The position numbers and the translations under genes were made by a program. From Bordetella parapertussis (GTDB lineage Bacteria > Pseudomonadota > Gammaproteobacteria > Burkholderiales > SG8-41): a stretch of DNA of 16,978 nucleotides. A model generated the notes under the pieces. It did not search any database. It was not told the DNA's origin and saw nothing but the letters and a program-made list of their open reading frames with translations. The stretch is from the NCBI GenBank assembly GCA_945870465.1, contig CAMBSS010000094.1, positions 1 through 16,978 of the forward strand, in the 5' to 3' direction. Positions 2,369-16,356 of this stretch are shown here, in pieces (position 1 is the first letter of the stretch; each line of letters opens with the position of its first letter).

Positions 2369-2415
2369 AGCATTTTGAGATTGCCTCTAGTCAATTCATG
2401 CCGATGGAGAAACGC

Positions 2416-2955
2416 ATGGCCAGAAAAATTCTTTACGTGTCCCCCGAGGCGCCTGTTGCGGACGCAGCACCCGATACAGAACGCCGCGCCATGAGCGCGG
2501 GGGGGCTACGCATCGGCATACTCGATAACAGCAAGGGCAACGCCGACCACCTGCTCTCGTTTTTGATTGAAGGCCTGCGCGCGCAGGTGCCGATTGCCTC
2601 GGTGGTGTCCAGGCGCAAACCGGCGTCCTCGCGTCCGGCTGAGAACAGCGTGCTCGACGACCTGGTGAAGGAGGCGGACTGCGTAGTCAGCGCCATGGCC
2701 GATTGAGGGTCCTGCACGTCGTGGAGTGTCCACGACATGGCGGAACTCAGAAAGCGCGGCCTGCTGACGATGGTGATCTGCTCGGAGCCTTTCCTCAAAC
2801 TCGGCAAGACGCAGGCGCGCGTGTTCGGCGTGCCGGCGCTGCCGCTGATCGTGATCCCGCATCCGCTGGGCGGCCTGTCCATTGACGACGTGAAGGCACG
2901 CGCTGCCGCGGCGCTGCCTGAATTCATCAAGCTGGTGAAGGAGGGCGCGCGATGA
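2416..2955 (+). CDS. UGSC family selenoprotein (in-frame TGA at 2704-2706 read as selenocysteine)
   Basis: The frame from the ATG at 2416 reaches TGA at 2704, then stays open in the same frame to TGA at 2953. Read through, it is a 179-residue protein with Asp-Sec97-Gly-Ser-Cys100-Thr-Ser-Trp, the exact UGSC motif that names a known (seleno)protein family. The N-terminal half has GILDNSKGNAD; the half after Sec has SVHDMAELRKRGL and a short strand-like TMVICSEPF. The layout resembles the UGTCTRC selenocysteine segment of glycine reductase GrdB (from family knowledge), suggesting a redox-active selenol/thiol pair. A strong hairpin sits 11 nt after the TGA. The start was chosen because GGAGA lies 5 nt upstream of 2416; ATGs at 2398 and 2404 are less likely. 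The stop overlaps the next gene's ATG (ATGA). Substrate and reaction are unknown. Conventional annotation would split it into two hypothetical fragments. Confidence 0.87.
2704..2739 (+). promoter_or_regulatory. Candidate bacterial SECIS hairpin after the Sec codon
   Basis: The seven bases GTCGTGG (2718-2724) pair perfectly with CCACGAC (2730-2736), leaving a five-base apical loop AGTGT (2725-2729). The loop starts 18 nt after the TGA and has a G at its second position. Both agree with the published bacterial SECIS consensus (short stem-loop immediately downstream, apical loop about 16-37 nt from UGA, G in the first two loop positions). Two more pairs can form beyond one C-A mismatch (2716-2738, 2715-2739). 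I do not see the bulged U of the E. coli fdhF element. It would recruit SelB with Sec-tRNA during translation. Confidence 0.7.
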
Positions 2956-4070
2956 TGGATATGGTGCAATTACTGAAGGCTCCGCAGGCGGGCTTTGAAG
3001 CGGAAGATGATTTCGAAGCAGTCAACGTCTATTGCCGCGAGCGCGGCTGGACCGACGGGCTGCCCATAGTCCCGCCGACGCAGGAACGCGTGGAGCGCAT
3101 GCTCGCGTACTGCAATCGCGCGTGGGATGAACCGATTGCGGCGCTGCCGCCGCGCTTCGGCGCCGCAACGCCGCTGCGGCTGGCGGCGAACGCGGTGATG
3201 GCGGGCTGCCTGCCCGAACATTTCCCCATCGTAATGCTGGCGCTCGAAGCGATGAGCGATGAGCGCTTCAATCTCTACGGCATACAGGCGACGACGCACC
3301 CGTGCGCGCCGCTCATCATCGTCAACGGCCCGATTGCGCGCGAACTCGGCATTAATTCAGGCCACAGCGCGTTTGGTCCCGGGGCGCACGCCAACGCGAC
3401 CATCGGTCGCGCGGTGAGATTGGCGCTGGTCAATATAGGCGGCGCCATTCCGGGGCTGGGCGACATGAGCACCTACGGTTCGCCGACCAAGTACAGCTAT
3501 TGCGCGGCGGAAAACGAAGCGGCGAGCCCGTGGGAGCCGCTGCACGTCGAATTGGGGTTTGCCAAAGAGGCGAGCACCGTCACGGTGGTCGCCGCCGAGC
3601 CGCCGCACAACATCAACGACCACGAAAGCACGACTGCCGAGGGTTTGCTGAAGACGATGGCGGGCACCATGGCGACACCCGGCGTCAACGATATCCACCA
3701 TCCGCTGGCGGCGCCGGTGGTGCTGTTCTGTCCCGAGCACGCGGCCACTGTTGCGGCGGGTGGTTATTCCAAAGCCGACGTCAAGAAATACATGTTCGAG
3801 AATGCGCGCGTGCCGTTGTCGAAATTTTCCGACGAGAACGTAAACCGCCGCCTGCGCAAGCGCATGCCCGAGGAATTTGCGAAGGCGGGGATGGATGCAA
3901 TGGTGCCGGTGGCGAAAAGTCCCGAGAACTACACGATCGTCGTGATCGGCGGCGCGGGTAAGCACTCGGCATTCATACCGACTTTCGGCAACACGCGCCT
4001 GGTCACGCGCGGCTTGAAGCACGAAGACGGGCGCGACGTGCTGTCGATACAGGAATTGCGCCGGGGCTGA
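2952..4070 (+). CDS. Conserved protein of unknown function, partner of the UGSC selenoprotein
   Basis: This 372-residue protein begins at an ATG overlapping the upstream TGA by four bases, with an ideal AAGGAGG (2938-2944) seven nt before it. The two genes are therefore translationally coupled. There is no signal peptide or membrane segment, so it is probably cytoplasmic. Visible conserved-looking blocks are RGWTDGLPIVPPT (31-43), TTHPCAPLIIVNGP (114-127), NSGHSAFGPGAHANATIGR (135-153), GGAIPGLGD (163-171), YCAAENEA with SPWEPLHVE (183-200), and a His-rich NDIHHPLAAPVV near the middle. Several cysteines (28, 54, 86, 118, 184 and one in FCPEH) could act with the selenol/thiol pair of the partner. 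I do not recognise a fold or a reaction. The tight coupling suggests a two-subunit selenoenzyme; that is inference. An adjacent second ATG at 2955 is equally usable. Confidence 0.85.
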   Translation: MMDMVQLLKAPQAGFEAEDDFEAVNVYCRERGWTDGLPIVPPTQERVERMLAYCNRAWDEPIAALPPRFGAATPLRLAANAVMAGCLPEHFPIVMLALEAMSDERFNLYGIQATTHPCAPLIIVNGPIARELGINSGHSAFGPGAHANATIGRAVRLALVNIGGAIPGLGDMSTYGSPTKYSYCAAENEAASPWEPLHVELGFAKEASTVTVVAAEPPHNINDHESTTAEGLLKTMAGTMATPGVNDIHHPLAAPVVLFCPEHAATVAAGGYSKADVKKYMFENARVPLSKFSDENVNRRLRKRMPEEFAKAGMDAMVPVAKSPENYTIVVIGGAGKHSAFIPTFGNTRLVTRGLKHEDGRDVLSIQELRRG

Positions 4071-4253: not shown

Positions 4254-5154
4254 AGGATTTAATAGCAGGAAAGCCGTAAAGCTGAGCGGGATTGTCGGTG
4301 AAGATGCGCTGGCGCACCGCGGCGTCGGGAAACCACTCGCAGAAAAGATCGATGAGGTCGCCGTCGTCGGGATTGATCTCCGGCGGGAAATGGTTCGGAT
4401 GCGGCCAGTTGGTGCCGAACACGACACGGTCGGGACGCGCCGCGACGAGCGCATGCGCGAACGGCTTCATGTCCGCGTATTCGGGCGGGCCCGATTTCGA
4501 GCGGTGATACCAGCTTGAAATCTTGACCCAGCAATCGTCGCGTCCCTGCAGGATGCGCAGCAGCGCCTGGAAACCCGGCGAATCGACAGTGTCCCTGCCG
4601 CCGCGCACGCAACCGAGGTGATCGAACACCAGCGCCGCGGGCACTTCCATCAGCTCCCCTTCGAGATCGGCGATTTCGGTGTTGTTGCCGACGTGCAGCT
4701 GAATATGCCAGCCGAGTGGCGCCACTTTCGGCGCGAGGATGTCGATCAACTCGGTGCCGCCGTAACCTTTGACATGGGTGGAGAGCCGCACGCCGCGCAT
4801 GCCTCCTGCGTTGAGGCGCGTGAGTTCTTTCTTCGTGATATCGGGGCTGACGCCGGCGACGCCGCGCGCGCGGTGCTGGCCGAGTTCCGCGATGATGTCG
4901 AGCGTGAGCGAATTGTCGATGCCGTATACGCTCGCGTTGACCTGCACCGTGCGCTCCAGGCCTATCGTCTTGCACATGTCGAGATAGCGGGCGAGTGGCA
5001 AGAGCGGCGGCGTGTAACTGCGTTTTTCGACCAGCGGATATTTTTCCTGGTCTTCGAAGACGTGGCAGTGGCAGTCGGTGCTGCCGGCCGGCAGCGCGTG
5101 GCGCGGCTTGCGCGGATTGGGATGTGGGCCGACGCAGTCGGGCGCGGTAGTCAT
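4252..5154 (-). CDS. Amidohydrolase family protein, LigI-like (2-pyrone-4,6-dicarboxylate hydrolase relative)
   Basis: The 300-residue protein has the amidohydrolase-2 (PF04909/COG3618) pattern. STDCHCHVF (about 25-33) gives the first-strand Asp-x-His-x-His. KRSYTPPLLPL follows, as in LigI, then VQVNASVYGIDN, an LQLHVGN strand, a VFDHLG strand and VFGTNWPHPN near the C-terminus with the final-strand Asn/His region. LigI hydrolyses a lactone (2-pyrone-4,6-dicarboxylate) without a metal; this relative probably hydrolyses a lactone or related carboxylate, substrate unknown. The ATG at 5154 was chosen because AGGAAC precedes it. The longer frame to 5325 would overlap the divergent gene and adds unconserved sequence. 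It is divergent from the dienelactone hydrolase gene across a 160-bp gap. Confidence 0.87.
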   Translation of the reverse strand: MTTAPDCVGPHPNPRKPRHALPAGSTDCHCHVFEDQEKYPLVEKRSYTPPLLPLARYLDMCKTIGLERTVQVNASVYGIDNSLTLDIIAELGQHRARGVAGVSPDITKKELTRLNAGGMRGVRLSTHVKGYGGTELIDILAPKVAPLGWHIQLHVGNNTEIADLEGELMEVPAALVFDHLGCVRGGRDTVDSPGFQALLRILQGRDDCWVKISSWYHRSKSGPPEYADMKPFAHALVAARPDRVVFGTNWPHPNHFPPEINPDDGDLIDLFCEWFPDAAVRQRIFTDNPAQLYGFPAIKS

Positions 5155-5272
5155 GTGGGTGTTCCTGTTGGGCGTTGGTGGTGCGGCGTGAATAAAATAA
5201 ATGCCGGATTGGAGCGTATCATACGGGTAATCGTTGTCCACCCGGACGGCGCTAAAAAATCCGCGCGCGATG

Positions 5273-5278
5273 TATAAT
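5273..5278 (+). promoter_or_regulatory. Possible sigma70 -10 box for the dienelactone hydrolase gene
   Basis: A perfect TATAAT lies 36 nt upstream of the ATG at 5315. No good -35 hexamer is found at 16-18 nt; a TTGTCC at 5234-5239 is too far away. It is the only perfect -10 box noticed in the divergent gap 5155-5314. Confidence 0.35.
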
Positions 5279-5314
5279 TTTCGCCGCCACCCAAATTCCA
5301 CGGAGAGAGCGCAC

Positions 5315-5983
5315 ATGGGCAACATGATTCAACTGACGGCCGCCGACGGCCACAAATTTTCCGCTTACCGCGTCGAGCCCAAGGGCAAGCCAAAAGGCGC
5401 GATCATCGTCGTCATGGAAATCTTCGGCGTCAACAGCCATATCAAGAAAGTCACCGATGAATACGCGGCAGACGGCTATCTCGCCATCGCGCCGGCGATG
5501 TTCGACCGCGTGCACCCGGGCCTCGACGTGGGTTACGGGCCGGAAGACCTCGAGATCGGCCGCGCGGCCATGAAAAAAGTGAGCCTCGACGACGCAATGA
5601 AGGACATTGCCGCGACCATGAAGAACGTCGAGTCCGCGGGCAAGATCGGCATCGTCGGCTATTGCTGGGGCGGCGCCGCAACGTTTAAAGCGGCGTGCAG
5701 CCTGGGCGGGCTCGCGTGCGCGTCGGCTTATTACGGCGGCGGCATTCCAGGACTGATAGCCGAGAAGCCGAAATGCCCGGTGATGTTCCACTGGGGCGAG
5801 ACCGACCATTCGATTCCGCTCGAGAAGGCAAAAGAAGTCGCCGCCGCGCACACGGACCAGACGCATCATTTCTATGCGGCGGGCCACGGCTTCAACTGCG
5901 AACAGCGCGGTTCGTATAGCGCCGAAGCTTCAAAGGTCGCGCGCGAGCGCACGCTCGAGTTCCTGGCGAAGCACGTCGGTTGA
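5315..5983 (+). CDS. Dienelactone hydrolase family protein
   Basis: This 222-residue alpha/beta-hydrolase has the full dienelactone hydrolase signature: Glu35 in VVMEIFGVN, nucleophile Cys117 in GYCWGG, Asp164 in HWGETDHSIP and His191 in AAGHGFNC. The cysteine rather than serine nucleophile and the buried Glu are diagnostic. Known members open dienelactones to maleylacetate in chlorocatechol pathways, though many have other ester or lactone substrates. Length matches the family (about 230). The start at 5315 is supported by GGAGAG seven nt upstream; the in-frame upstream ATG at 5234 is in the divergent promoter region and is rejected. Standing back to back with a LigI-like lactonase, it may share regulation and a lactone or aromatic-acid catabolic role (inference). 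It appears to be a single-gene transcript. Confidence 0.92.
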   Translation: MGNMIQLTAADGHKFSAYRVEPKGKPKGAIIVVMEIFGVNSHIKKVTDEYAADGYLAIAPAMFDRVHPGLDVGYGPEDLEIGRAAMKKVSLDDAMKDIAATMKNVESAGKIGIVGYCWGGAATFKAACSLGGLACASAYYGGGIPGLIAEKPKCPVMFHWGETDHSIPLEKAKEVAAAHTDQTHHFYAAGHGFNCEQRGSYSAEASKVARERTLEFLAKHVG

Positions 5984-6020
5984 TTTAGAACCCGCCTTGC
6001 AACACGGCACCGAAAAGCAA

Positions 6021-6150
6021 CCGCCGATAAACGCCGATTCACGCCGATACAACGAGTGATTGGGCATAAGTGATTGAGTGTCCAAATTGCTGAATCACTT
6101 AATCACTTATTCACTGGTTGTCATCTGCGTTCATCGGCGTCCATCGGCGG
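6021..6150. repeat. Palindromic intergenic element with GCCGAT-unit arms (type B)
   Basis: Arms 6021-6048 and 6123-6150 are inverted and match at 23 of 28 positions. The left arm (6020-6049) is three 10-bp units of the form aACGCCGATa. Inside lies a second imperfect palindrome of AGTGATT/AATCACT repeats (about 6054-6080 and 6090-6115), so nearly the whole element can fold back. It lies in the 229-bp gap between the dienelactone hydrolase and CoA-transferase genes. No reading frame of interest is present. Its unit design matches the element at 11660-11791. Confidence 0.75.
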
Positions 6151-6212
6151 CTCCAGAATGTTTTTGAGACCGCTTCTTATTTATTGATTCATAACCCAGG
6201 AAGACAGACGCA

Positions 6213-7406
6213 ATGCGACCATTCGAAGGCATCAAGATACTGGACTGCACGCACGTGCTCGCCGGGCCGTTCGCCGCGTATCAGTTGGCGGTGCTCGGCG
6301 CTGACGTGATCAAGGTGGAAGACCCCAACGAACCCGACCAGGCGCGCGAATCGGGCGCCGACATGGCGTTGAACAAGGTGCGCATGGGCACCGGGTTCAT
6401 GACGCAGGGCTCGAACAAACGGTCGATTGCGCTCAACCTGAAAACCGAAGCCGGGCGCGAAGCGATGAAGCGTCTGGTCAAGGACTGGGCCGACGTGCTG
6501 ATCGAAAATTACCGCCCCGGCGCGTTCAAGGCGCTGGGCCTCGGCTACGATGACCTCTCGAAGCTCAATCCCAAGCTGGTCTACGCATCGATGACCGCCT
6601 ACGGCCAGGACGGCCCGCGCGGCAACTGGACGGCGTACGACATGGCGATCCAGGCGACTTCAGGCTTCACCGCCTCGACCGGCACGCCCGACAGCGGCCC
6701 GATCAAGACCGGCGCGCCGGTGATCGACTACGCGACCGGCACCACCGGCGCGTTTGCCATCGCCTCCGCTCTGTACCAGACCCTGCGCACCGGCAAGGGC
6801 CAGCACATCGACATGGCGATGATGGACGTCGCGCTCATGATGCAGGCCACGCATATCACCGATCACCTGCACTCCGGACACAAGCCCAAGCGCAGCGGCA
6901 ACAAAATGCGTTTTGCCGAATCCTCGATGTTCGAGACCAAGGACGGCCTCGTGCAGCTCGCTGCTTCCAACGGCCGCCAGCACAAACGCTTCTACGCGGC
7001 GATCGGCGAGCATGCCGAAGTCGACCGCGTGAGTCTCGACGAGCGCTACGGGCGCTTTGACGAGAAGTACGAAATGGTCGCTAAAAGAATGAAAGAAAAA
7101 ACCGCCGACGAGTGGGAGCACTATCTCGAAGGCAAGCACGTCCCGGCCGCGCGCGTGCGCGAGCTGCACGAGACGTTGCAGGACCCGCAACTGAAGCATC
7201 GCGGCCTGTTGCACCGCCATGACAACGTGGCCGGCGTCGGCAAGCCGGTCACAGTGCCGGTCGCCGCGTTCAAGTTCAAGCATGATGGCCCGTCGCTCGA
7301 GCGTCCGCCCGCGCGCATGGGCGAGCACACCAACGAAGTGCTGAAGTCGGCTGGCTATGGCGCCGAGGAGATAGCAGCAATGAGGAAGGCGGGCGCGATC
7401 GCATAA
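6213..7406 (+). CDS. CaiB/BaiF family CoA-transferase (class III)
   Basis: The 397-residue protein has the class III CoA-transferase pattern: FEGIKILDCTHVLAGPF at the start, LGADVIKVEDP (28-38), NKRSIALNLKTEAGR (68-82), IENYRPGAF (97-105) and AYGQDGP (129-135). The expected catalytic Asp is Asp172 in APVIDYATG; LRTGKGQHIDMAMMD follows. These enzymes move CoA between carboxylic acids through a glutamyl/aspartyl-CoA thioester intermediate, often activating a substrate for catabolism. Length is typical (about 400). The ATG at 6213 has AGGAAG about 9-11 nt upstream. It heads a three-gene plus-strand operon, with the next gene starting one base after its TAA. Acid substrate and CoA donor cannot be told from sequence. 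Confidence 0.93.
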   Translation: MRPFEGIKILDCTHVLAGPFAAYQLAVLGADVIKVEDPNEPDQARESGADMALNKVRMGTGFMTQGSNKRSIALNLKTEAGREAMKRLVKDWADVLIENYRPGAFKALGLGYDDLSKLNPKLVYASMTAYGQDGPRGNWTAYDMAIQATSGFTASTGTPDSGPIKTGAPVIDYATGTTGAFAIASALYQTLRTGKGQHIDMAMMDVALMMQATHITDHLHSGHKPKRSGNKMRFAESSMFETKDGLVQLAASNGRQHKRFYAAIGEHAEVDRVSLDERYGRFDEKYEMVAKRMKEKTADEWEHYLEGKHVPAARVRELHETLQDPQLKHRGLLHRHDNVAGVGKPVTVPVAAFKFKHDGPSLERPPARMGEHTNEVLKSAGYGAEEIAAMRKAGAIA

Positions 7407-7407
7407 T

Positions 7408-8034
7408 ATGGCAAAACCAAAACTGATTTATTTCGACGCGCCGGTAAGCCGCGGTGAAGAATGCCGGCTCGCGCTGCACCTTGCGGGAATCGATTTCGAA
7501 GACGCGCGCGTCAAATTCGACGCCTGGCCCGCGCTAAAACCGCAAACGCCGTACGGCGCGATGCCCGTCTATGAATTGCCGGGGCGGCCGCCGCTCGCGC
7601 ACACCAACGCGATACTTTTGCTGATAGGGCGCGCTCACGGGCTGCACCCCACCGACGAGTTCGAAGCGGCGCGCCATGAGGGGATGATGCAGCACGTCGA
7701 AGACCTGCGCGCGAACGTAGGCCCGACCCTGCGCATGCCCGACGCCGATAAAAAAGCCGCGCGCGAGGCGCTGGTGGCCGGTTATCTGCCGGCGTGGGCG
7801 CAGGCGGCGGAGAAGAACATCACCGGCGCGCCGTTCTTCGGCGGCGCGAAAATCAACGTGGTGGACCTGAAGCTGCACATGGCGGTGCGCTGGTTCATCG
7901 GCGGCAAGGTCGATCACATTCCGGCAACGATCTTCGCCGCGTATCCAAAGCTCCTGGGCGTGCACGACGCGGTGCGCGATCATGCCGGCGTAAAGTCCTG
8001 GTACGCGAAGCCGCAACCTGCCGGAATACCCTGA
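7408..8034 (+). CDS. Glutathione S-transferase family protein
   Basis: The 208-residue protein begins with a thioredoxin-fold GST N-domain: KLIYFDAPVSRGEECRLAL (about 5-23), then TPYGAMPVYE (48-57) with the cis-Pro that binds the glutathione backbone, then the IL-LLIGR helix. The helical C-domain contains GAPFFGGAKINVVDLKLH, like the usual GDxLTxADL region, and ends with a YPKLLGVHDAV segment. The overall pattern resembles sigma-like GSTs. Such enzymes conjugate or isomerise electrophiles such as maleylpyruvate-type intermediates. The ATG is one base after the CaiB/BaiF stop, so the genes are very probably coupled. The role in this operon is unknown. Confidence 0.87.
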   Translation: MAKPKLIYFDAPVSRGEECRLALHLAGIDFEDARVKFDAWPALKPQTPYGAMPVYELPGRPPLAHTNAILLLIGRAHGLHPTDEFEAARHEGMMQHVEDLRANVGPTLRMPDADKKAAREALVAGYLPAWAQAAEKNITGAPFFGGAKINVVDLKLHMAVRWFIGGKVDHIPATIFAAYPKLLGVHDAVRDHAGVKSWYAKPQPAGIP

Positions 8035-8060
8035 AACCGCATTGAAGGAACTTCCCGGCA

Positions 8061-8909
8061 ATGATCATCGATTCGCAAGTCCACGCTTATGCCGCCAACA
8101 CGCCGCAACGTCCATGGCGCAAGCCGCCCCACGACTGGCCTGACCATGTAACGGCCGACGAGATGGTCGCGGCCATGGACAAGGTAGGCGTGGACGGCGC
8201 GATTAACGTCTCGGCCAATTCCCTGTACGGATTCGACGCCAGCTACGCGATCGAAGTGCAACGCGCTTATCCGGGACGCTTCGCCATCGTCAAGCCGGTG
8301 AATCCGGAAGACCCTGCCGCGGACGAGATCATCTCGGAATGGAAAAAGACGCCGGGGGCGGTTGGCATACGCGTCATGTTTGCGCTGAAGACCGCGGCGG
8401 ATCTCGACATGGCGGGCATCGATCGCGTTCTGCGCGCTGCCGCGCGCCACGATCTCCCGGTCAACCTGCAGTGCGGCAATAACCTGGACTTGGGTACAGC
8501 GTTAATCGACGCTCATCCGCAGACGCGCTTTGTCATCGACCATCTGGGTTTCTATCAGCCCCGCACGAAGCCGGCGCCGGCCAGCGTGTGGGCCGATCTG
8601 CCCAAAGTGCTGGCACTCGCGCGCCGCCAGAATGCGGCGCTCAAGGTGAGCGGTGTCTGCACCATGTCGCGTGAGCCTTTTCCGTACTCCGATATCTGGG
8701 ACCCGCTCGCCCGCGTTTTCGACGCCTGGGGCTTCGAGCGCTGCCTGTGGGGCACCGACTGGACCCGCACCTTCGCGCTGGTCAACTACGAGCAGGGCGT
8801 CGAGTCCTTTCGCCTGACCAACCGCCTGAACGACGGCGAGCGGGCCATGCTGATGGGCGGCGCCTGCGCAAAGGTATATGGCTGGTCGCCGAAAAAAGCA
8901 GGTGACTAA
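8061..8909 (+). CDS. Amidohydrolase family protein (amidohydrolase 2, PF04909-like)
   Basis: The 282-residue protein starts MIIDSQVHAY, the first-strand Asp-x-x-x-His version of the amidohydrolase-2 motif (the first His of HxH is replaced by Gln6). VGVDGAINVS, a VNLQCGNN strand, FVIDHLGFYQP and LWGTDWTRT follow, giving His and Asp positions at the ends of later barrel strands. Members hydrolyse lactones or decarboxylate aromatic or unsaturated acids. AAGGAAC precedes the ATG. It is the last gene of the CoA-transferase/GST operon. Its stop is 9 nt from the stop of the convergent VOC gene, with no terminator seen between them. It is only distantly like the other two amidohydrolases in this window. 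Confidence 0.87.
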   Translation: MIIDSQVHAYAANTPQRPWRKPPHDWPDHVTADEMVAAMDKVGVDGAINVSANSLYGFDASYAIEVQRAYPGRFAIVKPVNPEDPAADEIISEWKKTPGAVGIRVMFALKTAADLDMAGIDRVLRAAARHDLPVNLQCGNNLDLGTALIDAHPQTRFVIDHLGFYQPRTKPAPASVWADLPKVLALARRQNAALKVSGVCTMSREPFPYSDIWDPLARVFDAWGFERCLWGTDWTRTFALVNYEQGVESFRLTNRLNDGERAMLMGGACAKVYGWSPKKAGD

Positions 8910-8918
8910 GGATTTTCC

Positions 8919-9305
8919 TCAAGCCGGAATACACCAAACCTTCTTCGCATGCTCCGGCGTCGCGACGTCGAAAGGTATGCCATCGGGATCGGTGTATTTG
9001 CGCTCGGTGCGCGGGCCTTCGCCGATGTTCTTGATCTGGCCGGCGTAGGTGCCGCCGCTTTTCTCGACTTTGGCGACCGCCTCATTGAGGTCCTCGACGA
9101 GAAAGCCCATGTGATGCAAGCCCTTCTTGGCGTTTGAATTCGCGTTGCGGTTGGCGTCTATGATGGCGAGGCTGACCACGCCGTCGGACATCATGATGGC
9201 GACGCCGGACTGGCGTACGCGTTTCATTTCAAAAGCCTGCTCGTAGAAAGTCGCGGTTTTTTCCATATCGTCTACCGACAGGGTGATGTGGCGAAGCTTG
9301 GCCAT
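8919..9305 (-). CDS. VOC superfamily (glyoxalase/dioxygenase fold) protein
   Basis: The 128-residue single-domain-pair protein has two beta-alpha-beta-beta-beta modules: LRHITLSVDDMEKTATFYEQ (about 4-23) and HHMGFLVEDLNEAVAKVEK (64-82), ending with the TDPDGIPFDVATP signature (105-117). Likely metal ligands are His6, His64 or His65, and Asp113, which stands where most glyoxalase I-like proteins have Glu. It could be an epimerase, isomerase or lyase; no substrate is indicated. AAAGGAG stands about seven nt before the ATG. It is the last gene of the long minus-strand cluster, 28 nt after the MmgE/PrpD stop. Confidence 0.9.
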   Translation of the reverse strand: MAKLRHITLSVDDMEKTATFYEQAFEMKRVRQSGVAIMMSDGVVSLAIIDANRNANSNAKKGLHHMGFLVEDLNEAVAKVEKSGGTYAGQIKNIGEGPRTERKYTDPDGIPFDVATPEHAKKVWCIPA

Positions 9306-9333
9306 GCGGGACTCCTTTGCGTTAAGCGGAAAG

Positions 9334-10725
9334 TTATCTGATGCGCGCGCGTTTTGCGGGTGTTGCCGTCTTGAACAGCTCGTTTGCGGATTCCAGCTTT
9401 TCCAGCGCCTGCAGTTGCGCGAACAAGGTTTTGGCGTCGATCTTCAATTGCGACCAGCCGACGCAATCCTCGAATTTCACCCACAGGTGCTGCGCTGTCA
9501 GCGGCGCATGCGGATCACCCATCGCGTATTTTACGTTCTCGCTTTTAAGCACTTTGCCGTCATTCAGCGTGATCTGCACATTATCGTAAGGCGCATAACC
9601 CGAGGTGCCGGCTTCTTCGACGGGGTTGATGTCGATGGCGACGCGCTCTATCAGGCCGCGCACCGCCGGGCTGAGGACGAATTCATCCGTCAGATCCTGC
9701 AGGCCGACGCGTCCCGCCAGGACAGAGCAGGCGAGGGCGAACTCTATGCTGAACTTGGCGGCGATGGCGTTTTGCGGGCGGTGGTTCTTGAGGATCACCA
9801 GGTGCGAATTGCTGAAGCACACGCGGATCTCTTTGATGTCTTTCGCCGCGACCGGCTGTTTCTTCAGCAAGCCGAGCATGGCGTCGATAGCGCGGTGCGC
9901 GCGGTAGCACACCGGGTATTGCTTGATGCTGAGGCCTTGCTCCGTCATATGCCAGTGCCGCGGCGGCAGCTTGGGCGGCGTGTCTAAATCGACGTCGCCC
10001 TTCGGCGAGAGTGCCGCGAGATACCCCTGTGTATGTTCGAGCGCGTCGGTGGTGGCCGAGATGCCGGCTTCAGCAAACCGCGCGGCGTAGATGCCGGATG
10101 CGGCGGCCTTGCCGGGATGCGTGGGTTTGACCATGGAACCGAGGTTCGACATCACGCCGCTCGCTTCCGAAACCGCTACGCCAAGTGCATGTGCGGCAGC
10201 GGTCGCGTCGAGCTTGTGCAGCGATGCGCAAGCCGCCGCGGCGCCGATGGCGCCGAAGATTCCAGTCGGGTGCCAGCCTTTGCGCTGGTAGTTGCCGCGC
10301 TCGCGCGCGATCAGGTCGGCCCACACTTCGTAGCCCGCCACGTAGGCGACGATCATGTCGCGGCCGGAGGACTGCAATGCCTGCGCTTCCGCCAATATGG
10401 CGGGCACCAGCACGGCACTCGGATGGCTGCCTTTCAACGCAACGTCGTCGTAATCCAGCGCGTGGGAGGCAGTGCCGTTGATCCACGCGGCGGAAGGTGC
10501 CGAACTGCGCTTGCTGCTGAAATAGAGATTGGCAGGGCCGTCAGGCTGGTCCGCCAGCAGCACGCGCTCGACTGCCTGGGTTACCGGTTCCCGCGACCCA
10601 GCCAACATCACGCCGACGCAGTCGGTGAATCCCTGTTTCGCGACGTTGACGACAGCATCCGGCAGCGCGGCGAAATCAAGCCGCGCAATGAAAGCGCCGT
10701 ACGCTGCGGTCAGCGGCTGCGTCAC
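9334..10725 (-). CDS. MmgE/PrpD family protein with canonical active site
   Basis: This 463-residue protein carries the full family signature: SHALDYDD (87-94), SHPSAVLVPA (100-109), KGWHPTGIFGAIGAAAA (149-165), MVKPTHPGKAAASG (198-211) and LSIKQYPVCYRAH (about 265-277). These provide equivalents of IRG1 Asp93, His103, His159, Lys207 and Lys272 (Asp91, His101, His152, Lys200, Lys268). It probably performs a dehydration, decarboxylation or epimerisation of a branched or tricarboxylate-like acid. The start is a GTG at 10725 with AGGGA about 7-8 nt upstream. That ribosome-binding sequence lies inside the terminal inverted repeat of the 10728-10995 element. It is downstream of the LeuC/LeuD-like pair on the same strand and is followed closely by the VOC gene. 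Confidence 0.92.
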   Translation of the reverse strand: MTQPLTAAYGAFIARLDFAALPDAVVNVAKQGFTDCVGVMLAGSREPVTQAVERVLLADQPDGPANLYFSSKRSSAPSAAWINGTASHALDYDDVALKGSHPSAVLVPAILAEAQALQSSGRDMIVAYVAGYEVWADLIARERGNYQRKGWHPTGIFGAIGAAAACASLHKLDATAAAHALGVAVSEASGVMSNLGSMVKPTHPGKAAASGIYAARFAEAGISATTDALEHTQGYLAALSPKGDVDLDTPPKLPPRHWHMTEQGLSIKQYPVCYRAHRAIDAMLGLLKKQPVAAKDIKEIRVCFSNSHLVILKNHRPQNAIAAKFSIEFALACSVLAGRVGLQDLTDEFVLSPAVRGLIERVAIDINPVEEAGTSGYAPYDNVQITLNDGKVLKSENVKYAMGDPHAPLTAQHLWVKFEDCVGWSQLKIDAKTLFAQLQALEKLESANELFKTATPAKRARIR

Positions 10726-10727
10726 AA

Positions 10728-10995
10728 AGAGTCCCTAACAGGATGAAACACGTGTGCGTTGCTGCCAGAATTGGTGAGGGCAAGGCGCCCGGTGAAGGTA
10801 ATAGTTATCCTATTACCAAGACGAGCAACGCGGCCATCGCCGATTCTGGCTGCAACCCTTCGGGCTGGCACGAGTTTTGGCCCATGGCGTTGTCGAAAAG
10901 CCCCTTGCTTAGAATGACTAAGCATCGGGACTTTCTTCTAGCCCTGAGCCAAAATCGTGACAGCGCATCGCGCGTTTCATCCTGTTAGGGACTCT
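10728..10995. repeat. 268-bp element: perfect 22-bp terminal inverted repeats enclosing two long hairpins
   Basis: The 22 bases 10728-10749 are an exact inverted copy of 10974-10995. Between them lie two imperfect hairpins. The first (10759-10856) has outer arms 10759-10778/10837-10856 matching at 17 of 20, and a perfect 8-bp tip GGTAATAG/CTATTACC (10797-10804/10810-10817). The second (10864-10964) has outer arms 10864-10881/10948-10964 with one gap and one mismatch, and a 6-bp tip GCTTAG/CTAAGC (10907-10912/10918-10923). Spacers are 9, 7 and 9 nt. No ORF of note. The right repeat contains the stop codon of the LeuD-like gene; the left contains the ribosome-binding region of the MmgE/PrpD gene. 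It looks like a MITE-like non-autonomous element or a structured RNA. Confidence 0.8.
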
Positions 10996-11626
10996 GGACG
11001 AGCACCTGCATTTCTTTGCCGGAGAGCCACGGCGTTTCGGCTTCGATGCGCTTTTCGTAGGCGGTCATCGCGTCTTTATAGCGCGCGGTGATCGCGATGT
11101 CGTCCAGTCCTTCGAGCATGCGCTCCTTGCGCGAAGGCTCGATGTTGAACTTGTAGACTGCGCCGTCGGGACCGGTGACGGTTTGCGCTGGCAAATCGAT
11201 GGTGATTTCGGCGCCGGGCTTGGCGTGCAATTGCTCGCGCAGTTTGCGCACGTCAGCTTCGGGCAGCACGACCGGCAAGAGGCCGTTCTGATAGCTGTTG
11301 CTCATGTAGAACGCGCCGAAGCTGGGTGCAATCACCGCGCGCACGCCGAAGTCCACTACCGCGTAGACGGCGCCTTCGCGCGTCGAGCCGCAGCCGAAGT
11401 TGGGGCCCGTGACGAAGATGCCTGCCTTCTTGTACGGCTCGGTGTGCAGGATGAAGTCGGGTTTCTCCTTGCCGGCCGCGTCGAAGCGGTCGTTGAAGAA
11501 CAGGAAGTTGCGGTAGCCGACGGTCAGCGGCTTCCTCAGGAAGCGTTGCGGAATGATCATGTCGGTGTCGATGTCCGGCGTGTCGAACGGTGCGGCGACG
11601 GCGGTGAGGCGTTTGAAGGGTTCCAT
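10985..11626 (-). CDS. leuD: LeuD-like small subunit of 3-isopropylmalate dehydratase/aconitase-family hydro-lyase
   Basis: The 213-residue protein matches the bacterial LeuD swivel domain: DTPDIDTDMIIPQRFL (about 15-30), GPNFGCGSTREGAVYA (74-89) and VIAPSFGAFYMSNSYQNGLLPV (about 98-119). With the LeuC-like subunit it would isomerise or dehydrate a 2- or 3-hydroxy acid by way of the unsaturated acid. The usual SSREHA of leucine-pathway LeuD is STREGA here, so the natural substrate may not be isopropylmalate. AGGA stands six nt before the ATG. The last codons and TAA fall inside the 22-bp terminal repeat of the downstream element, so the native C-terminus may have been replaced or shortened. 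The LeuC-like gene is 179 nt upstream on the same strand. Confidence 0.88.
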   Translation of the reverse strand: MEPFKRLTAVAAPFDTPDIDTDMIIPQRFLRKPLTVGYRNFLFFNDRFDAAGKEKPDFILHTEPYKKAGIFVTGPNFGCGSTREGAVYAVVDFGVRAVIAPSFGAFYMSNSYQNGLLPVVLPEADVRKLREQLHAKPGAEITIDLPAQTVTGPDGAVYKFNIEPSRKERMLEGLDDIAITARYKDAMTAYEKRIEAETPWLSGKEMQVLVQSP

Positions 11627-11659
11627 AAATTCCTTTACTCAAGATCTAAAAAGGCAATC

Positions 11660-11791
11660 AGCCGCAGATAAACGCAGATGAACGCAGATAAGGCAAAAAG
11701 AAATTGACGTCGGAAGAGCGGTGCCGAGTCTTATCAGCATCTATTGCGTGTTCGTAACTTGAGGGTGCTTTGAATTGTTTCATCTGCGGCT
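11660..11791. repeat. Palindromic intergenic element with tandem 10-bp GCAGAT units (type C)
   Basis: Positions 11661-11690 are three near-identical 10-bp units (gCCGCAGATA, AACGCAGATG, AACGCAGATA). The left end, 11660-11670, is an inverted match (10 of 11) of 11781-11791. The enclosed sequence of about 90 bp has no ORF. It occupies most of the 179-bp gap between the LeuC-like and LeuD-like genes, which in the leucine pathway are normally close together. Unit sequence and spacing are close to the element at 6021-6150. Confidence 0.65.
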
Positions 11792-11805
11792 TAACTTTTT
11801 AAGGT

Positions 11806-13221
11806 TTAGGTCAATGTGCGGACGTCGGTGAGCTTGCCGGTGACGGCGGCGGCAACGGCCATCGCGGGGCTCACGAGGTGGGTGCGTACGCCGCGGCCCT
11901 GGCGGTTTTCGAAATTGCGCGGCGAAGTCGAGGCGCAGCTTTCGCCCGGCGCGGGAAAGTCGCCGTTCGAGCCGACGCACATCGAGCACGCCGAATCGCG
12001 CCACTCGAAACCGGCGGCGATAAAAATCTTGTCGAGCCCCGCCGCTTCGGCGCGGCGCTTGACGTCGGTCGAGCCGGGCGAAATCATCGCCGGCACTATG
12101 GCTTTGCGTCCTTTGGCGACGGCCGCCGCCGCCACCAGGTCTTCAAAGCGCGCGTTGGTGCATGAGCCGATAAACACGCGGTCGATCTTGATGTCGGTGA
12201 TTGCCATGCCCGCAGTCAGGCCCATGTAGTGGAGTGCGCGTTCGAGGTGCACGCGCTCGACTTTGTCTTTTGCCTGTGCGGGATCGGGAATTTTTCCCGT
12301 AATAGGCAGCGCGTCGTCCGGCACCGTGCCCCAGGTCACCATGGGCGCGATGTCGCCGGCGGCGAGTTCGACTTCCTGGTCGAACGTTGCGCCGCTGTCG
12401 GAGGGCAGTGACTTCCAGTGATTGAGCGCCGCGTCCCACTGTGCGCCCTTGGGCGCGAACTCGCGGCCTTCGAGAAATTTGAATGTGGTTTCGTCCGGAG
12501 CGACCAATCCGGCGCGCGCGCCGGCTTCGATCGACATGTTGCAGACGGTCATGCGCTGCTCCATTGTCATCGCGCGCATCGCGGAGCCAGCGTATTCGAT
12601 GACGTGGCCGACACCGCCGCTGATGCCGACCTTGGCGATGATGGCGATAATCACGTCTTTAGCGGTCACGCCCGCGCCGAGCTTGCCTTCGACCGTCACC
12701 CGCAGCGTTTTAGGTTTGCGGTACCACAGCGATTGCGTCGCCAGCACGTGCTTGATTTCGGAAGCGCCGATGCCGAACGAGAACGCGCCGAACGCGCCGT
12801 TGGTGGTGGTGTGCGAGTCGGCCGCGGTGATCACCATGCCTGGCTGCACGAGCCCGAGGTCTGGTCCGATCACGTGCATGATGCCCTGGCGCACCTTGTC
12901 GTCCATGCCGATGAAAGGCAGGCCGAAGTCTTTCGCGTTGCGCGAGAGCTGCTCGACCATGTTGCGGATTTCAGGGTCCTTGATGCCTGCGAGCCCGCCG
13001 GCGCGGTTAAGCGTGGGCAGGTAGTGGTCCGCTATCGCGATCTGTTTCAGCGGGCGGAACACCGGGCGCTTGTCGAGTCGCAATTTGTCGAACGCGTAGA
13101 ACGGCCCTTCGTGCACGAAATTACGGTCGACGTAAATCAGCGCCTCGCCGTCTTCACGCTGGGCAATCACGTGGTTGTCCCAGATCTTGTCGAACATGTT
13201 GCGTGGTTTGCTCACGGTCAT
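11806..13221 (-). CDS. leuC: LeuC-like large subunit of 3-isopropylmalate dehydratase/aconitase-family hydro-lyase
   Basis: The 471-residue protein has the aconitase-family [4Fe-4S] cysteines: Cys354 in FIGSCTNARFED, and Cys412 and Cys415 in DSACSMCVGSNGD. It also has the DSHTTTNGAFGAFSFGIG block (135-152), CASTSPRNFENRQGRG and a THLVSPAMA tail. Compared with E. coli LeuC, the conserved DSHTATHG is DSHTTTNG and CSMCLAMNND is CSMCVGSNGD. PGERC becomes PGESC, losing an arginine. These changes near the cluster and substrate suggest a catabolic paralog acting on another hydroxy acid (such as a methylated malate), though a true LeuC is not excluded. Length fits LeuC (about 470). The ATG at 13221 has AAGGGA upstream; the internal Met9 lacks a good ribosome-binding site. 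Confidence 0.88.
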   Translation of the reverse strand: MTVSKPRNMFDKIWDNHVIAQREDGEALIYVDRNFVHEGPFYAFDKLRLDKRPVFRPLKQIAIADHYLPTLNRAGGLAGIKDPEIRNMVEQLSRNAKDFGLPFIGMDDKVRQGIMHVIGPDLGLVQPGMVITAADSHTTTNGAFGAFSFGIGASEIKHVLATQSLWYRKPKTLRVTVEGKLGAGVTAKDVIIAIIAKVGISGGVGHVIEYAGSAMRAMTMEQRMTVCNMSIEAGARAGLVAPDETTFKFLEGREFAPKGAQWDAALNHWKSLPSDSGATFDQEVELAAGDIAPMVTWGTVPDDALPITGKIPDPAQAKDKVERVHLERALHYMGLTAGMAITDIKIDRVFIGSCTNARFEDLVAAAAVAKGRKAIVPAMISPGSTDVKRRAEAAGLDKIFIAAGFEWRDSACSMCVGSNGDFPAPGESCASTSPRNFENRQGRGVRTHLVSPAMAVAAAVTGKLTDVRTLT

Positions 13222-13246
13222 TTTCCCTTCAGGTAAATCTGCAAAA

Positions 13247-13321
13247 TTCGTCGTTCCCGCGCAGGCGGGAACCCAGGGGGTTCAAAGTCGTCTGGATGCC
13301 CGCCTGCGCGGGCATGACGAA
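13247..13321. repeat. Paired-hairpin dispersed-repeat-like element (dRS3-like)
   Basis: Arms 13247-13276 and 13292-13321 are inverted repeats matching at 26 of 30. Each arm is itself a perfect 8-bp hairpin with a 4-nt loop: GTTCCCGC/GCGGGAAC (13253-13260/13265-13272) and ATGCCCGC/GCGGGCAT (13296-13303/13308-13315). The sequence differences between arms keep pairing within each hairpin. It looks like the widespread CCCGCGCAGGCGGG intergenic repeat, resembling neisserial dRS3. It sits between the amidohydrolase gene and the LeuC-like gene and could attenuate transcription between them. Confidence 0.8.
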
Positions 13322-13337
13322 TAAAAAGAGGGTCATG

Positions 13338-14516
13338 TCAGGTTAAGGCGGGCAGCATGGCCGCGGCGCTGGTGCTGCGGATGATGTCTTTCGCTTCCTC
13401 GGTAATGCGCGGATTGTCCCGCAACAGCTGGACGTCCTTGTATTTCATGCGGCCGCCCGGATCGTCGTGCGGATAGTCGGTGGCGAACAGGAATTGTGTT
13501 GCGCCGAGCATCTCGATCGACTCCGGCAGTTCCGGCTCCTCGGTCTCGATGGTGAAAAAGAGGTTCTTCTTGAAATACTCGCTGACCGGCTTCTTGTTTT
13601 TCACTTCGTATTCTTCCAGCGAGGTGAGGCGCTTGCCGGCCGACAGGCGCTCGCTGACGGGCATCACGCGGCGGTGGAAGCGCGCGGTCGCGTCTTCGTC
13701 TTCATAGTTGAGCGGCGGCTTGACGAACGCGGCGTCCAGACGGTCGAGCAGTGGCTTGATGAAGGCTGAGCCCGCTTCGGTAAACACCATTTTCAGGTTC
13801 GGGAAGTCGTCGAACAGACCGCTGGTGCACAGCGAAGCGAGGCTCATCTGGCCTTCGGCGGGGCACAGGGTGTCGAGGCCGTCGCGCTGGAAGATCATCA
13901 TGTTGCTGATGCGGTGGCCGTGCTGCACATTGTGCAGGACGATGGGCATGCCCAGCTCTTCGGCGCGCTTGAAGAAAGGCCACAGCTCGCGGTGGCTGCC
14001 GAGCGTCTCCGAAAACTGGTGCTCGCGCACCGGGAACACTTTGTCCATGGCAATCGCCTGGAAGCCGTTTTTTTTCGCCCACTCCATTTCGCTGATCGCG
14101 CTAGGGACGTCCTGCATTGCGACGAGTGCCGCGCCGATCAGCTCGTTAGGATATTTCTTGATCAGGTTGAGGATCGCGATGTTGTGCGAATGCGCCATCT
14201 GGATGGCGAGCGCGGGGTCGAGCGTGTAGTTGAAGTAGATCGCCGAGAACTGGCTGAGCAATAATTGCTTGTCGATGCCGAGCTTCTGGTACTCCTCGAG
14301 GCGCACGTCCATGTTGGAGAGGCCGAGGTGCTTGCCGCCGGCGCCGGGCGGCGGTAGCGGCGTCGAGCCTTTGACGCGGTACTCGCCCGGGAAGCTCCAT
14401 TTCACGAGCAGGCCGTCCTTGTCGTATTCGAACCGGGGCCGCAGGTCAGCGGTAGGGCCTTCCATGTGGTCGTAGACGTCGCGCGGCAGTATGTGGGTGT
14501 CCATGTCGATAATCAT
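13338..14516 (-). CDS. Amidohydrolase family protein (ACMSD-like, PF04909)
   Basis: The 392-residue protein begins MIIDMDTHILPRDVYDHM, a first-strand metal-site motif in which the usual HxH is only a single His8 with nearby Asp4 and Asp6. Other barrel blocks are LGIDKQLLLSQF, NPDQ-like IAILNLIKKYPN, GFQAIAMDKVFPVREHQF, MPIVLHNVQHGH, LKMVFTEAGSAFIKPLLDRLD and FLFATDYPHDDPGG. The last holds the C-terminal Asp expected for this family. Members include amino-carboxymuconate-semialdehyde decarboxylase and related hydratases, so a decarboxylation or hydrolysis of an acid is likely; the substrate is unknown. CAGGAG precedes the ATG. It is 33 nt downstream of the TctC-family receptor gene and so is probably cotranscribed with it. 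Confidence 0.88.
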   Translation of the reverse strand: MIIDMDTHILPRDVYDHMEGPTADLRPRFEYDKDGLLVKWSFPGEYRVKGSTPLPPPGAGGKHLGLSNMDVRLEEYQKLGIDKQLLLSQFSAIYFNYTLDPALAIQMAHSHNIAILNLIKKYPNELIGAALVAMQDVPSAISEMEWAKKNGFQAIAMDKVFPVREHQFSETLGSHRELWPFFKRAEELGMPIVLHNVQHGHRISNMMIFQRDGLDTLCPAEGQMSLASLCTSGLFDDFPNLKMVFTEAGSAFIKPLLDRLDAAFVKPPLNYEDEDATARFHRRVMPVSERLSAGKRLTSLEEYEVKNKKPVSEYFKKNLFFTIETEEPELPESIEMLGATQFLFATDYPHDDPGGRMKYKDVQLLRDNPRITEEAKDIIRSTSAAAMLPALT

Positions 14517-14549: not shown

Positions 14550-15545
14550 TTATTTCACCGTGATGCCGGTCAGTTTGATGACCTTCGCCCATTTTTCGGT
14601 TTCGGCGGCGAGGAACTGGCCGAATTTTTCCGCCGGCATCGTATCTGGTTCGGCGCCGACGTTGTTCTTCAGCTGATCGGCGAATGCCGGCGTGTTGGAG
14701 ATCTTGACGATTTCATCGCTCAGCCTGCGCAAGATTGCCGCGGGTGTCCTGGCCGGCGCGACATAGCCGTACCACGAGCCCGCGGCGTAGCCGGGCACGC
14801 CGGATTCGGCGATGGTCGGCACGTCGGGCATGACGGGCGAGCGCTGTTCCCCGGTCGTCGCCAGTGCGCGCAGGCGCTTGGCGGCGACCGGCGGCAGCAA
14901 CACCGGGATGGGCGCAATCGTCATGTCGACTTCGCCCGAGATCAAATCCGTGATCGATTGCGAATTGCCTTTGTACGGGATCTGCGTGATTTCGGTGTTC
15001 GTCATGCTCATGAACAACGCAGTCGCCAGATGCGTCGAGCCGCCGATGCCGGCCGATGCGTAATTGAGGCCGCCGCGCTTGCGCTTGGCGAGCGCTATGA
15101 GCTCCTTCACGTTCCTGGCGGGCACCGCGGGGTGCACCACCAGCAGGTTCTGGGTGGTCGCCACCAGCACCACCGGCGCGAAATCCTTGCGCGTGTCGAA
15201 AGTCAGCTTCGTGTAGAGCGCGGGAATGTAGGCAAAAGACGAGTTGGCGAGCAGCAGCGTGTAGCCGTCGGGCGGCGCATTGGCGACGAGTTCGTTCGCC
15301 AGCAGTCCGCCGGCGCTCGGCCGGTTGTCGACGTAGACCTGCTGGCCTATGGTTTCACTCATCGTTTTGGCGACCAGCCGCGACACCAGGTCGGCGGTGC
15401 CGCCGGCCGTATAACCGACGACGATGCGTATGGATTTCGCCGGGAAAGTTTGCGCGCAGACGGATGCGGCGCAGCAGGCGCTCAGTGCGAGAAAGGTCGC
15501 GTCGCGTGAAATGTGTCCTATGGTTATTTTTTTATGGGTATGCAT
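14550..15545 (-). CDS. Tripartite tricarboxylate transporter substrate-binding protein (TctC/Bug family)
   Basis: The 331-residue protein has a signal peptide: basic MHTHKK start, hydrophobic FLALSACCAASVCA, predicted cut before QTFPAKSIRIVV. Bug-family hallmarks follow: VGYTAGGTAD, VDNRPSAGG, PPDGYTLLLA, VVHPAVPARNVKELI, YASAGIGGSTHLA, IPYKGNSQSITDLISGEVDM and PTIAESGVPGY. It is a periplasmic receptor for a carboxylate. No TctA/TctB membrane genes are in the window, so it may be an orphan receptor that shares a transporter. The start at 15545 was chosen because it gives a proper signal peptide; a longer frame up to 15818 overlaps the SDR gene and is rejected. It begins 16 nt after the SDR stop, in the same operon. 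Confidence 0.93.
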   Translation of the reverse strand: MHTHKKITIGHISRDATFLALSACCAASVCAQTFPAKSIRIVVGYTAGGTADLVSRLVAKTMSETIGQQVYVDNRPSAGGLLANELVANAPPDGYTLLLANSSFAYIPALYTKLTFDTRKDFAPVVLVATTQNLLVVHPAVPARNVKELIALAKRKRGGLNYASAGIGGSTHLATALFMSMTNTEITQIPYKGNSQSITDLISGEVDMTIAPIPVLLPPVAAKRLRALATTGEQRSPVMPDVPTIAESGVPGYAAGSWYGYVAPARTPAAILRRLSDEIVKISNTPAFADQLKNNVGAEPDTMPAEKFGQFLAAETEKWAKVIKLTGITVK

Positions 15546-15561
15546 GGGGAGATTTTCCGTT

Positions 15562-16356
15562 TTAGATAGTGGCGGTGCCGCCGCCGTCGACCTGCAACGT
15601 GACACCGGTGGTAAAACTCGCGCGCTTGGACGCGAGAAACAATACGGCGTGCGCGACTTCTTCCGGGCGACCCAGGCGTCCGAGCGGCGGGTTCTTTCTG
15701 GCACCCGGCTGTTTGAGTGCGGCATTGCTGCTCGCAATCTGGTGGTGGCGCGCGGTGTCGATGGGGCCGGGCGCGACCGCGTTGATGCGGATGTTCTGCG
15801 GCGCGTAAATATCGGCAAGCCCCTTGGTCAGCGTGTTGAGCGCGATGTTGGCGGCGCAGCCGGGCAGATGGGCGGGTGTCGGCTGGCGGCCGCCGCGGCC
15901 GGTGACGTTCACGATATTGCCGTGGCCCTGTTTCAGCATGACGGGAATCACCGCGCGCATCGAGCGCACATAACCGTAGAGCTTGGCCTGCAGCACGCTT
16001 TCCCAGTCGTTATCGGTCAATTTGAGGAAGTCGCCGAAGATAGGCGCCGCGGTGCAGTTCACCAGCACGTCGATGCCGCCATGCTTGCGCGCAATCGTCT
16101 TGGCCACGCGGTCGACCGAGGCGCGCGAGGCAAGATCGACGCTCGCCACCGTCACGCGCGTTTTGGCCGCGCGTTCGATGTCCTGCGCGGTGCGTTTCAG
16201 CGCGCGCGCGTCGCGCGACGACATCACGACATTCGCGCCCGCCATCGCGAGCTCACGCGCAATTACGCTGCCCAGCGAGCCGCGCGCGCCGATCACCCAG
16301 GCGGTCTGGTTCTCGAATTCGCGAAGTGGTTTTTTGATACTGCGTTTTTTTGCCAT
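15562..16356 (-). CDS. SDR-fold protein lacking the canonical catalytic tetrad
   Basis: The 264-residue protein has a classical SDR frame: AWVIGARGSLGS (19-30) for nucleotide binding, VDLASRAS (73-80), VNCTAA (99-104) where NNAG is usual, INAVAPGPIDT and a C-terminal TLQVDGGGTATI. The catalytic positions are all changed. The tetrad Asn is Lys125 (QAKLYGY), the Ser is Gly153 (VTGRGG), the Tyr is Gly166 and the Lys is Asn170 (GCAANIALNTLTK). Spacing (13 and 4 residues) matches FabG-type SDRs, so the alignment is firm. It may bind a cofactor without ordinary ketoreductase chemistry, or use another mechanism. The ATG follows the upstream receptor's TAA after one base, so it is in the same operon, between two TctC-family receptors. 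Confidence 0.87.
   Translation of the reverse strand: MAKKRSIKKPLREFENQTAWVIGARGSLGSVIARELAMAGANVVMSSRDARALKRTAQDIERAAKTRVTVASVDLASRASVDRVAKTIARKHGGIDVLVNCTAAPIFGDFLKLTDNDWESVLQAKLYGYVRSMRAVIPVMLKQGHGNIVNVTGRGGRQPTPAHLPGCAANIALNTLTKGLADIYAPQNIRINAVAPGPIDTARHHQIASSNAALKQPGARKNPPLGRLGRPEEVAHAVLFLASKRASFTTGVTLQVDGGGTATI

Follow-up and report, generated by a model that had tools for sequence, protein, structure and literature searches.

The UGSC gene and its in-frame TGA

The window, by which we mean the whole analysed stretch of 16,978 nucleotides, contains a gene of the UGSC family that is interrupted by a TGA codon and followed directly by a partner gene. The following features were assigned in this part of the window.

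2416..2955, + strand: predicted UGSC-family selenoprotein gene, 179 residues with Sec97 (profile matches and relatives)
2704..2706, + strand: in-frame TGA, codon 97, putative selenocysteine codon (TGA in relatives, Cys replacement in others)
2718..2736, + strand: SECIS-like hairpin with an 8-bp stem and the apical loop GUG at 2726-2728 (fold and comparative evidence)
2938..2945, + strand: ribosome-binding-site-like AAGGAGGG before the partner start (read from the sequence)
2952..4070, + strand: partner gene, 372 residues, whose ATG overlaps the UGSC stop (ATGA)

The 179-residue frame has a single internal TGA, at codon 97, and its terminal stop is likewise a TGA. The internal TGA lies in the motif AD-U-GSC-TSWSVHD, which is encoded at its core by TGA GGG TCC TGC (2704-2715). 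In the Pfam search, the read-through protein matched PF24696 (UGSC) over residues 9-174 with 149.3 bits against a cut-off of 25. The NCBIfam match to NF041046 covered residues 30-173 and, with 127.3 bits, was barely above the cut-off of 125. Since both matches span the Sec site, the two flanks of the TGA belong to one family. The gene has in common with the UGSC-containing protein (PF24696; NF041046) the sequence family, the UGSC motif, and Sec or Cys at the site. The UGSC family is already known, and the window gene adds to the known list.

An earlier note, made from the letters of this DNA, had proposed a UGSC selenoprotein of 179 residues at 2416..2955. The translation and the two profiles bear out its coordinates, motif, and length. 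The note had also remarked that no formate dehydrogenase lies nearby, and none was found among the subset of window frames given to Pfam and NCBIfam.

Conservation of the TGA among relatives

A scan of contigs yielded 308 confirmed relatives, and the best 80 of these 308 were kept as loci. The motif codon was TGA in all 80 of them: in 78 by pattern and in two, L074 and L078, by eye. The latter two have GGC after the TGA instead of GSC, and a wider pattern was found in 80/80. Cysteine was present at the Sec position in L201 and L202 and, by pattern, in 35 of the 108 database proteins. These observations are in line with the earlier placing of Sec at residue 97, and relatives run on past the TGA with family sequence, as had been claimed for both of its sides.

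The nearest relative, L001, comes from a betaproteobacterial MAG (genome G001) whose scaffold name mentions Lac Pavin. The two proteins are 99% identical over the matched stretch, and the L001 DNA aligned with the window in five blocks of 91 to 97% identity. The comparison revealed 20 synonymous codon changes and one replacement before the TGA, and three synonymous changes and no replacement after it. This pattern indicates purifying selection beyond the TGA.

A pattern count showed that at least 66 of the 108 database relatives terminate right before the Sec codon. Automatic annotation tends to conceal UGSC genes by stopping at the UGA, as the earlier note had anticipated for this one. The closest database protein, P0002, has Trp at the Sec position, which is probably the outcome of automatic translation with table 4. 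Several environmental betaproteobacterial loci (L009, L020-L022, L043, L054, L057, L059, L064, L070, and L080) were found in MAG records that bear the title Bordetella parapertussis or Chitinophaga pinensis. The titles of these records look mislabelled.

The SECIS-like hairpin

The hairpin is spaced 19 bases from the TGA, and the 19-base stem-loop alone has a folding energy of -11.1 kcal/mol. The bacterial SECIS model given in section 5 of PMC13188914, in the part of that review available to us, has a loop of 3-9 nt, a stem of 4-16 bp, a G in the first two loop positions, a spacing of 16-37 nt, and an energy of at most -7.5. With its GUG loop, 8 bp, 19 nt, and -11.1 kcal/mol, the hairpin of the window lies within every one of these limits, and the claim that a hairpin follows the TGA at the right distance was correct. 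A dinucleotide-shuffle test of the wider window fold gave a moderate result (z -1.92, with 10 of 200 shuffles equally good), and therefore the case for the hairpin depends on comparative evidence. An Rfam search of positions 2400-3000 returned no SECIS match.

Synonymous codon choice was compared in 81 genes (the 80 loci and the window) and found to be near-frozen over the hairpin, at codons +4 to +10 counted from the UGA. Ser is encoded there by AGT in 81/81 genes, against 9% in the rest of the genes; for Ser TCG the figures are 81/81 and 32%, and for Val GTC 81/81 and 29%. Covariation was analysed in 33 chosen copies, 30 of them distinct, with 500 shuffles. Standard pairs occupied 97.5% of the pair cells, 13 cells were changed on both sides, and three of the eight pairs had two-sided changes. 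Not one of the 500 shuffles matched the observed paired fraction, the two-sided cells, or the covariation score; two of the five covariation measures were weaker, being attained by 36 and 32 of the 500 shuffles. Sliding the hairpin out of register reduced pairing to 48% or less. In more distant paralogs, which read TPAVLRA where the window gene has TSWSVHD, a hairpin with a very different sequence occurs at almost the same position. A strict hairpin test was applied to the 54 copies of G026, the 5.7 Mb MAG to which locus L034 belongs (record title: Betaproteobacteria bacterium isolate RH-23may17-68), of which 47 passed and 7 failed. The comparison of copies shows the predicted hairpin to be under selection.

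Selenocysteine machinery in carrier genomes

In bacteria, SelB and tRNA-Sec read UGA as selenocysteine under the direction of a hairpin. The machinery was examined in the genomes of the relatives, the carriers being 50 genomes picked as distinct sources from the 80 loci (best 80 of 308). A selB match above the cut-off was present in 47 of the 50 genomes. A tRNA-Sec of at least 71 bits was detected in 45; the tally over the gathering score was 47, and the extra matches, which score near 48, are probably other tRNAs. All 18 carriers tested for selD were positive. In 14 of these 18 genomes, the best selD match itself contains one TGA (for example, G001 C8:576-1505), and because of this in-frame TGA, the SelD of these lineages is probably itself a selenoprotein. 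The nearest genome, G001, contains selB and selD, and a frame upstream of selB is, by eye, what we take to be the end of selA. No tRNA-Sec above the cut-off was found in G001 (best score 43.6 against 47 bits); this MAG is fragmented, and the gene may lie in one of its gaps.

Among 300 sampled genomes of the order, G001 included, UGSC was above the cut-off in 29 and selB in 83. The two occur together: selB was detected in 28 of the 29 UGSC carriers versus 55 of the 271 other genomes (p ~1e-16), and G107 was the sole carrier of this sample without a selB match. In a phylum sample, the UGSC family was found in 6 of 397 genomes, G001 among the six; the family is rare outside such lineages. The earlier note had called a selenoprotein in this setting unusual. 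This was an overstatement, since selB is that frequent in the order sample and UGSC is commoner in non-marine water according to the accessible part of PMC2398784; the presence of a selenoprotein here is no great exception. UGSC genes were also seen at ~1 to 3 kb from selB (G239 C88, G265 C56, G288 C22, G147 C77, and G023 C16), and this closeness suggests joint transfer.

Two readings in which the UGA would not specify Sec were considered. The TGA could be a true stop, and the gene would then be decaying, or split into two short genes or a pseudogene. Such a reading could call on the database relatives annotated as ending at the TGA and on the decayed-looking copies that exist in G026 (L161, one in L140, and L164). 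It is contradicted by the exclusively synonymous changes after the TGA in comparison with L001, by the identical TGA throughout the best 80 of the 308 relatives, and by the covariation of the hairpin together with the co-occurrence of selB; we regard it as very improbable. Of the conditions that the earlier note had named as speaking against its proposal, none was borne out as far as they could be examined: family sequence continues beyond the TGA in the relatives, and the frame is under purifying selection. An altered code, with UGA meaning tryptophan rather than Sec, would account for P0002, if its Trp were not a probable table 4 translation. However, TGA is the ordinary terminal stop in 30 of the 54 G026 copies and in the UGSC frame of the window, the replacement elsewhere is Cys, and Sec machinery is present in the relatives. 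The likelihood of this reading is close to nil. The comparison with relatives indicates that 2416-2955 is a single working UGSC-family selenoprotein gene, and on the same comparative grounds it is near certain that the UGA at codon 97 is read as Sec.

The partner gene

The 372-residue partner protein had no Pfam or NCBIfam match. A relative of it was present in every one of the 80 loci (best 80 of 308). In 79 of them it lay at most 200 bases from the UGSC stop, and in 68 it overlapped this stop by 5 bases or fewer; in L049 the distance was 3.6 kb. In G026, 47 of the 54 UGSC domains were fused to the partner or had it next to them in the same orientation, and none was found for the other 7. The partner family is very large, as 7988 of the 7997 scored candidates of a database search passed E 0.001. 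Residues D35, C86, R153, N161, E187, and W194 of the partner were conserved at 99-100% (79 rows), and these conserved positions look like those of an active site.

The predicted model of the partner was fairly confident (pLDDT 86.7); its structural matches were weak, with no clear relative. A comparison of the partner with two PF09338 Gly_reductase (GrdE-type) proteins of L187 and L188 gave 0.1% and revealed no link to them. Because the two genes are tightly placed and are fused in many paralogs, UGSC and its partner most likely form one enzyme. A fusion of UGSC to a domain named 'Unknown_1' was noted in 2008, in the part of PMC2398784 at our disposal.

Multiplication of the UGSC family

The number of UGSC matches per carrier genome ranged from one to at least 55, fragments included, and 23 of the 50 genomes had ten or more. 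Separate genome searches gave 58 matches in G026, 40 in G047, and 36 in G009. Copy numbers in the dozens are found in some relatives from fresh water. With the use of a purpose-built profile, 54 UGSC domains with the TGA exactly at the motif were identified in G026. Their median identity was 29% and the highest 75% (pairs with at least 60 aligned columns), and consequently the copies are not strain duplicates. By a length rule, 51 of the 54 copies were intact-looking. The rule was failed by L161, one L140 copy (332, minus strand), and L164, which look decayed or cut short. Among the 51 intact-looking copies, 33 continue in frame into the partner; 32 of these were seen in full, and one is truncated at the edge of the retrieved stretch. 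The other 18 are free-standing, one of which is truncated at a contig end. Copy L151 has just 64 residues after the Sec and a further TAG was flagged in it, so that 50 is a safer count than 51.

In G026, selB and selD (above the cut-off) and recA were each present in a single copy. A second, partial recA was found in G009, and this MAG may be mixed. Three further genes of G026 carry the TGA: two are PrdB-like and one is a GrdB gene. Its predicted selenoproteins number 54 to 55 when the four families UGSC, SelD, PrdB-like, and GrdB are counted, with the usual reserve for counts from a MAG.

The selenoproteins of the Olavius algarvensis Delta 1 symbiont are spread over many families, whereas in G026, a betaproteobacterium, a single family accounts for ~51. 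In having very many selenoprotein genes per genome, G026 resembles this symbiont and a Methylomirabilota MAG, whose sets of 57 and 63, respectively, are the largest known in bacteria according to the available part of PMC13188914. The betaproteobacterial class is absent from the selenoprotein-rich groups named in that part of the review (PMC13188914). If the count is true, one family would put these bacteria among the richest selenoprotein genomes known. In the 2016 survey, the available part of which gives 26 and 33 for the UGSC family (PMC5029168), we take the figures as organisms and genes, i.e., about one gene per genome; here, 51 intact-looking copies occur in one MAG.

The multiplication of the family beside its partner is a surprise that lies outside the coordinates of the earlier note. 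It presents a family of uncharacterised function, paired with one partner and present in a 5.7 Mb genome as ~51 intact-looking copies. In the literature searched, which was incomplete and included sources accessible in part, we found no report of the size of the expansion, of the constant partner, or of a kinship with glycine and proline reductases, save for the 2008 fusion with an unnamed domain (PMC2398784).

Predicted fold and likely kinship with glycine and D-proline reductases

The UGSC product is predicted to be a single alpha/beta domain with Sec97-G-S-Cys100 at the start of a helix. In the model (pLDDT 89.6), five strand-helix units alternate (E H E H E H E H E H), and Sec97 is placed where the helix following the third strand begins. 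A Trx-like fold was called likely for UGSC in the 2008 GOS paper, as far as its accessible part goes (PMC2398784). It is at odds with the predicted model, which consists of five strictly alternating units and lacks the Trx core of adjacent strands.

A profile comparison of UGSC with the GrdB/PrdB-like domains was performed with HHalign. With a rich alignment, the probability was 91.2% (E 1e-6, score 49), and Sec was aligned on Sec and Cys on Cys. The best of 100 column-shuffled controls scored 20.8 and the reversed control 15.8. Smaller or PrdB-like-only alignments gave only 1.5% and 33.6%. Since the result varies with the depth of the alignment and the inclusion of true GrdB, the kinship is likely and not proven; UGSC is likely a distant relative of the Sec domain of glycine and D-proline reductases. 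In Pfam, the window UGSC protein had no direct match to PF07355 at E up to 0.001, PF24696 being its only match.

The form U-x-x-C-x-x-C is a mark of the GrdB family. After Cys100, the window protein reads TSWSVHD, without a further Cys; the UxxCxxC form was seen in L188. GrdB/PrdB (PF07355, TIGR04483), selenoprotein B of glycine, sarcosine, betaine, and D-proline reductases, is thus similar to UGSC in the distant profile match with its aligned Sec and Cys. In contrast, UGSC lacks the direct PF07355 match and the further Cys of the motif, and it has a different partner, without a GrdE-type signal.

Metabolic setting and proposed mechanism

The neighbours of the UGSC gene in the window include TctC, CoA-transferase III, MmgE/PrpD, amidohydrolases, and a GST. 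Part of the TctC frame is shared with an SDR gene, as follows.

14550-15818, - strand: TctC frame, with the TctC domain only from residue 145
15562-16356, - strand: SDR gene

Because the domain begins at residue 145, the true start of TctC is probably further in. In G026, Bug/TctC genes were counted in 44 UGSC loci and in 20 control regions, all taken from bases 5000-13500 of large contigs. The loci contained 110 genes (27.8 per 100 kb) and the controls 24 (14.1 per 100 kb); at least one was present in 40/44 loci versus 11/20 controls (p 0.002). The density of ~14 per 100 kb in the controls would imply several hundred such genes in the G026 genome. For a Rhodoplanes, 434 Bug/TctC receptor genes are reported in the available part of PMC5994714.

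The reading that we favour, and consider reasonably probable, is that UGSC and its partner are a two-part selenoenzyme family, probably reductive, which has diversified for different small organic substrates. The chemistry of the Sec domain in glycine and D-proline reductases is reductive cleavage via a selenol, and the likely kinship with GrdB/PrdB makes this the likeliest chemistry for UGSC. SelB and tRNA-Sec would decode the UGA at 2704-2706 as Sec, directed by the hairpin at 2718-2736. The UGSC domain and the partner would act as one enzyme in two parts, in which the partner holds the substrate. The selenol of Sec97 would attack, as a nucleophile, a centre of the small substrate. Sec97 and Cys100, the resolving thiol, would then form a selenenyl-sulfide, and a cellular dithiol would reopen the bond. 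This series of steps is drawn by analogy with glycine and D-proline reductases, and we put it forward tentatively. We are similarly guarded about the paralogs, which might serve different organic acids imported via Bug/TctC receptors, an idea with modest support. A wider and somewhat more speculative view is that UGSC and its partner could constitute a superfamily, so far unrecognised, of selenoenzymes made of two parts or of a single chain and akin to glycine and D-proline reductases. It would combine a GrdB-like Sec domain with a new catalytic partner and would have radiated, in some environmental betaproteobacteria, into tens of substrate-specific enzymes per genome.

UGSC could instead be a general thiol-disulfide oxidoreductase or peroxidase, with the partner as its client or reductant. 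UxxC is a classical redox motif, which agrees with this role, as does the Trx-like fold proposed in the accessible part of the 2008 paper (PMC2398784). The strictly alternating units of the predicted model are unlike the Trx core, and the ~51 copies of G026, most of which are fused with or coupled to a single partner family, fit substrate diversification better than a general redox defence. We therefore judge this role unlikely, while giving it more weight than the view of Sec read-through as mainly a selenium gate. According to the latter, ribosomes would halt without Sec ~245 bases before the start of the partner, and the output of the partner would drop. The ATGA in which the stop and start of the two genes overlap in the window, the overlaps of up to 5 bases in most of the 80 loci, and the need of fused copies for read-through to make the partner domain are all compatible with such a gate. 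Against it, the partner owns a strong ribosome-binding-like site at 2938-2945, and Cys versions of UGSC exist (L201 and L202), which leaves the gate improbable.

Should the two-part selenoenzyme be confirmed, these bacteria would spend selenium on a diversified metabolism and not on a few redox enzymes. If the link to Bug/TctC uptake is true, selenium supply would be tied to the scavenging of dissolved organic acids. The likely link to glycine and proline reductases gives UGSC a testable chemistry.

Other predicted selenoprotein genes of the group

The genomes of this group also carry GrdB and PrdB-like genes, in which the TGA lies in U-G-T-[SC]-T or U-P-x-C-T motifs. In betaproteobacterial MAGs (L187:2539 and L188:2551), GrdB genes have a TGA followed by GT[SC]TRCG, with a PF09338 Gly_reductase gene adjoining. 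In L189-L196, L214, and L215, PrdB-like proteins were observed whose in-frame TGA lies in a U-P-[NQL]-C-T motif. As the L189 protein scored 103.8 bits against PrdB (TIGR04483), for which the cut-off is 300, these proteins are probably another sub-threshold selenoprotein subfamily.
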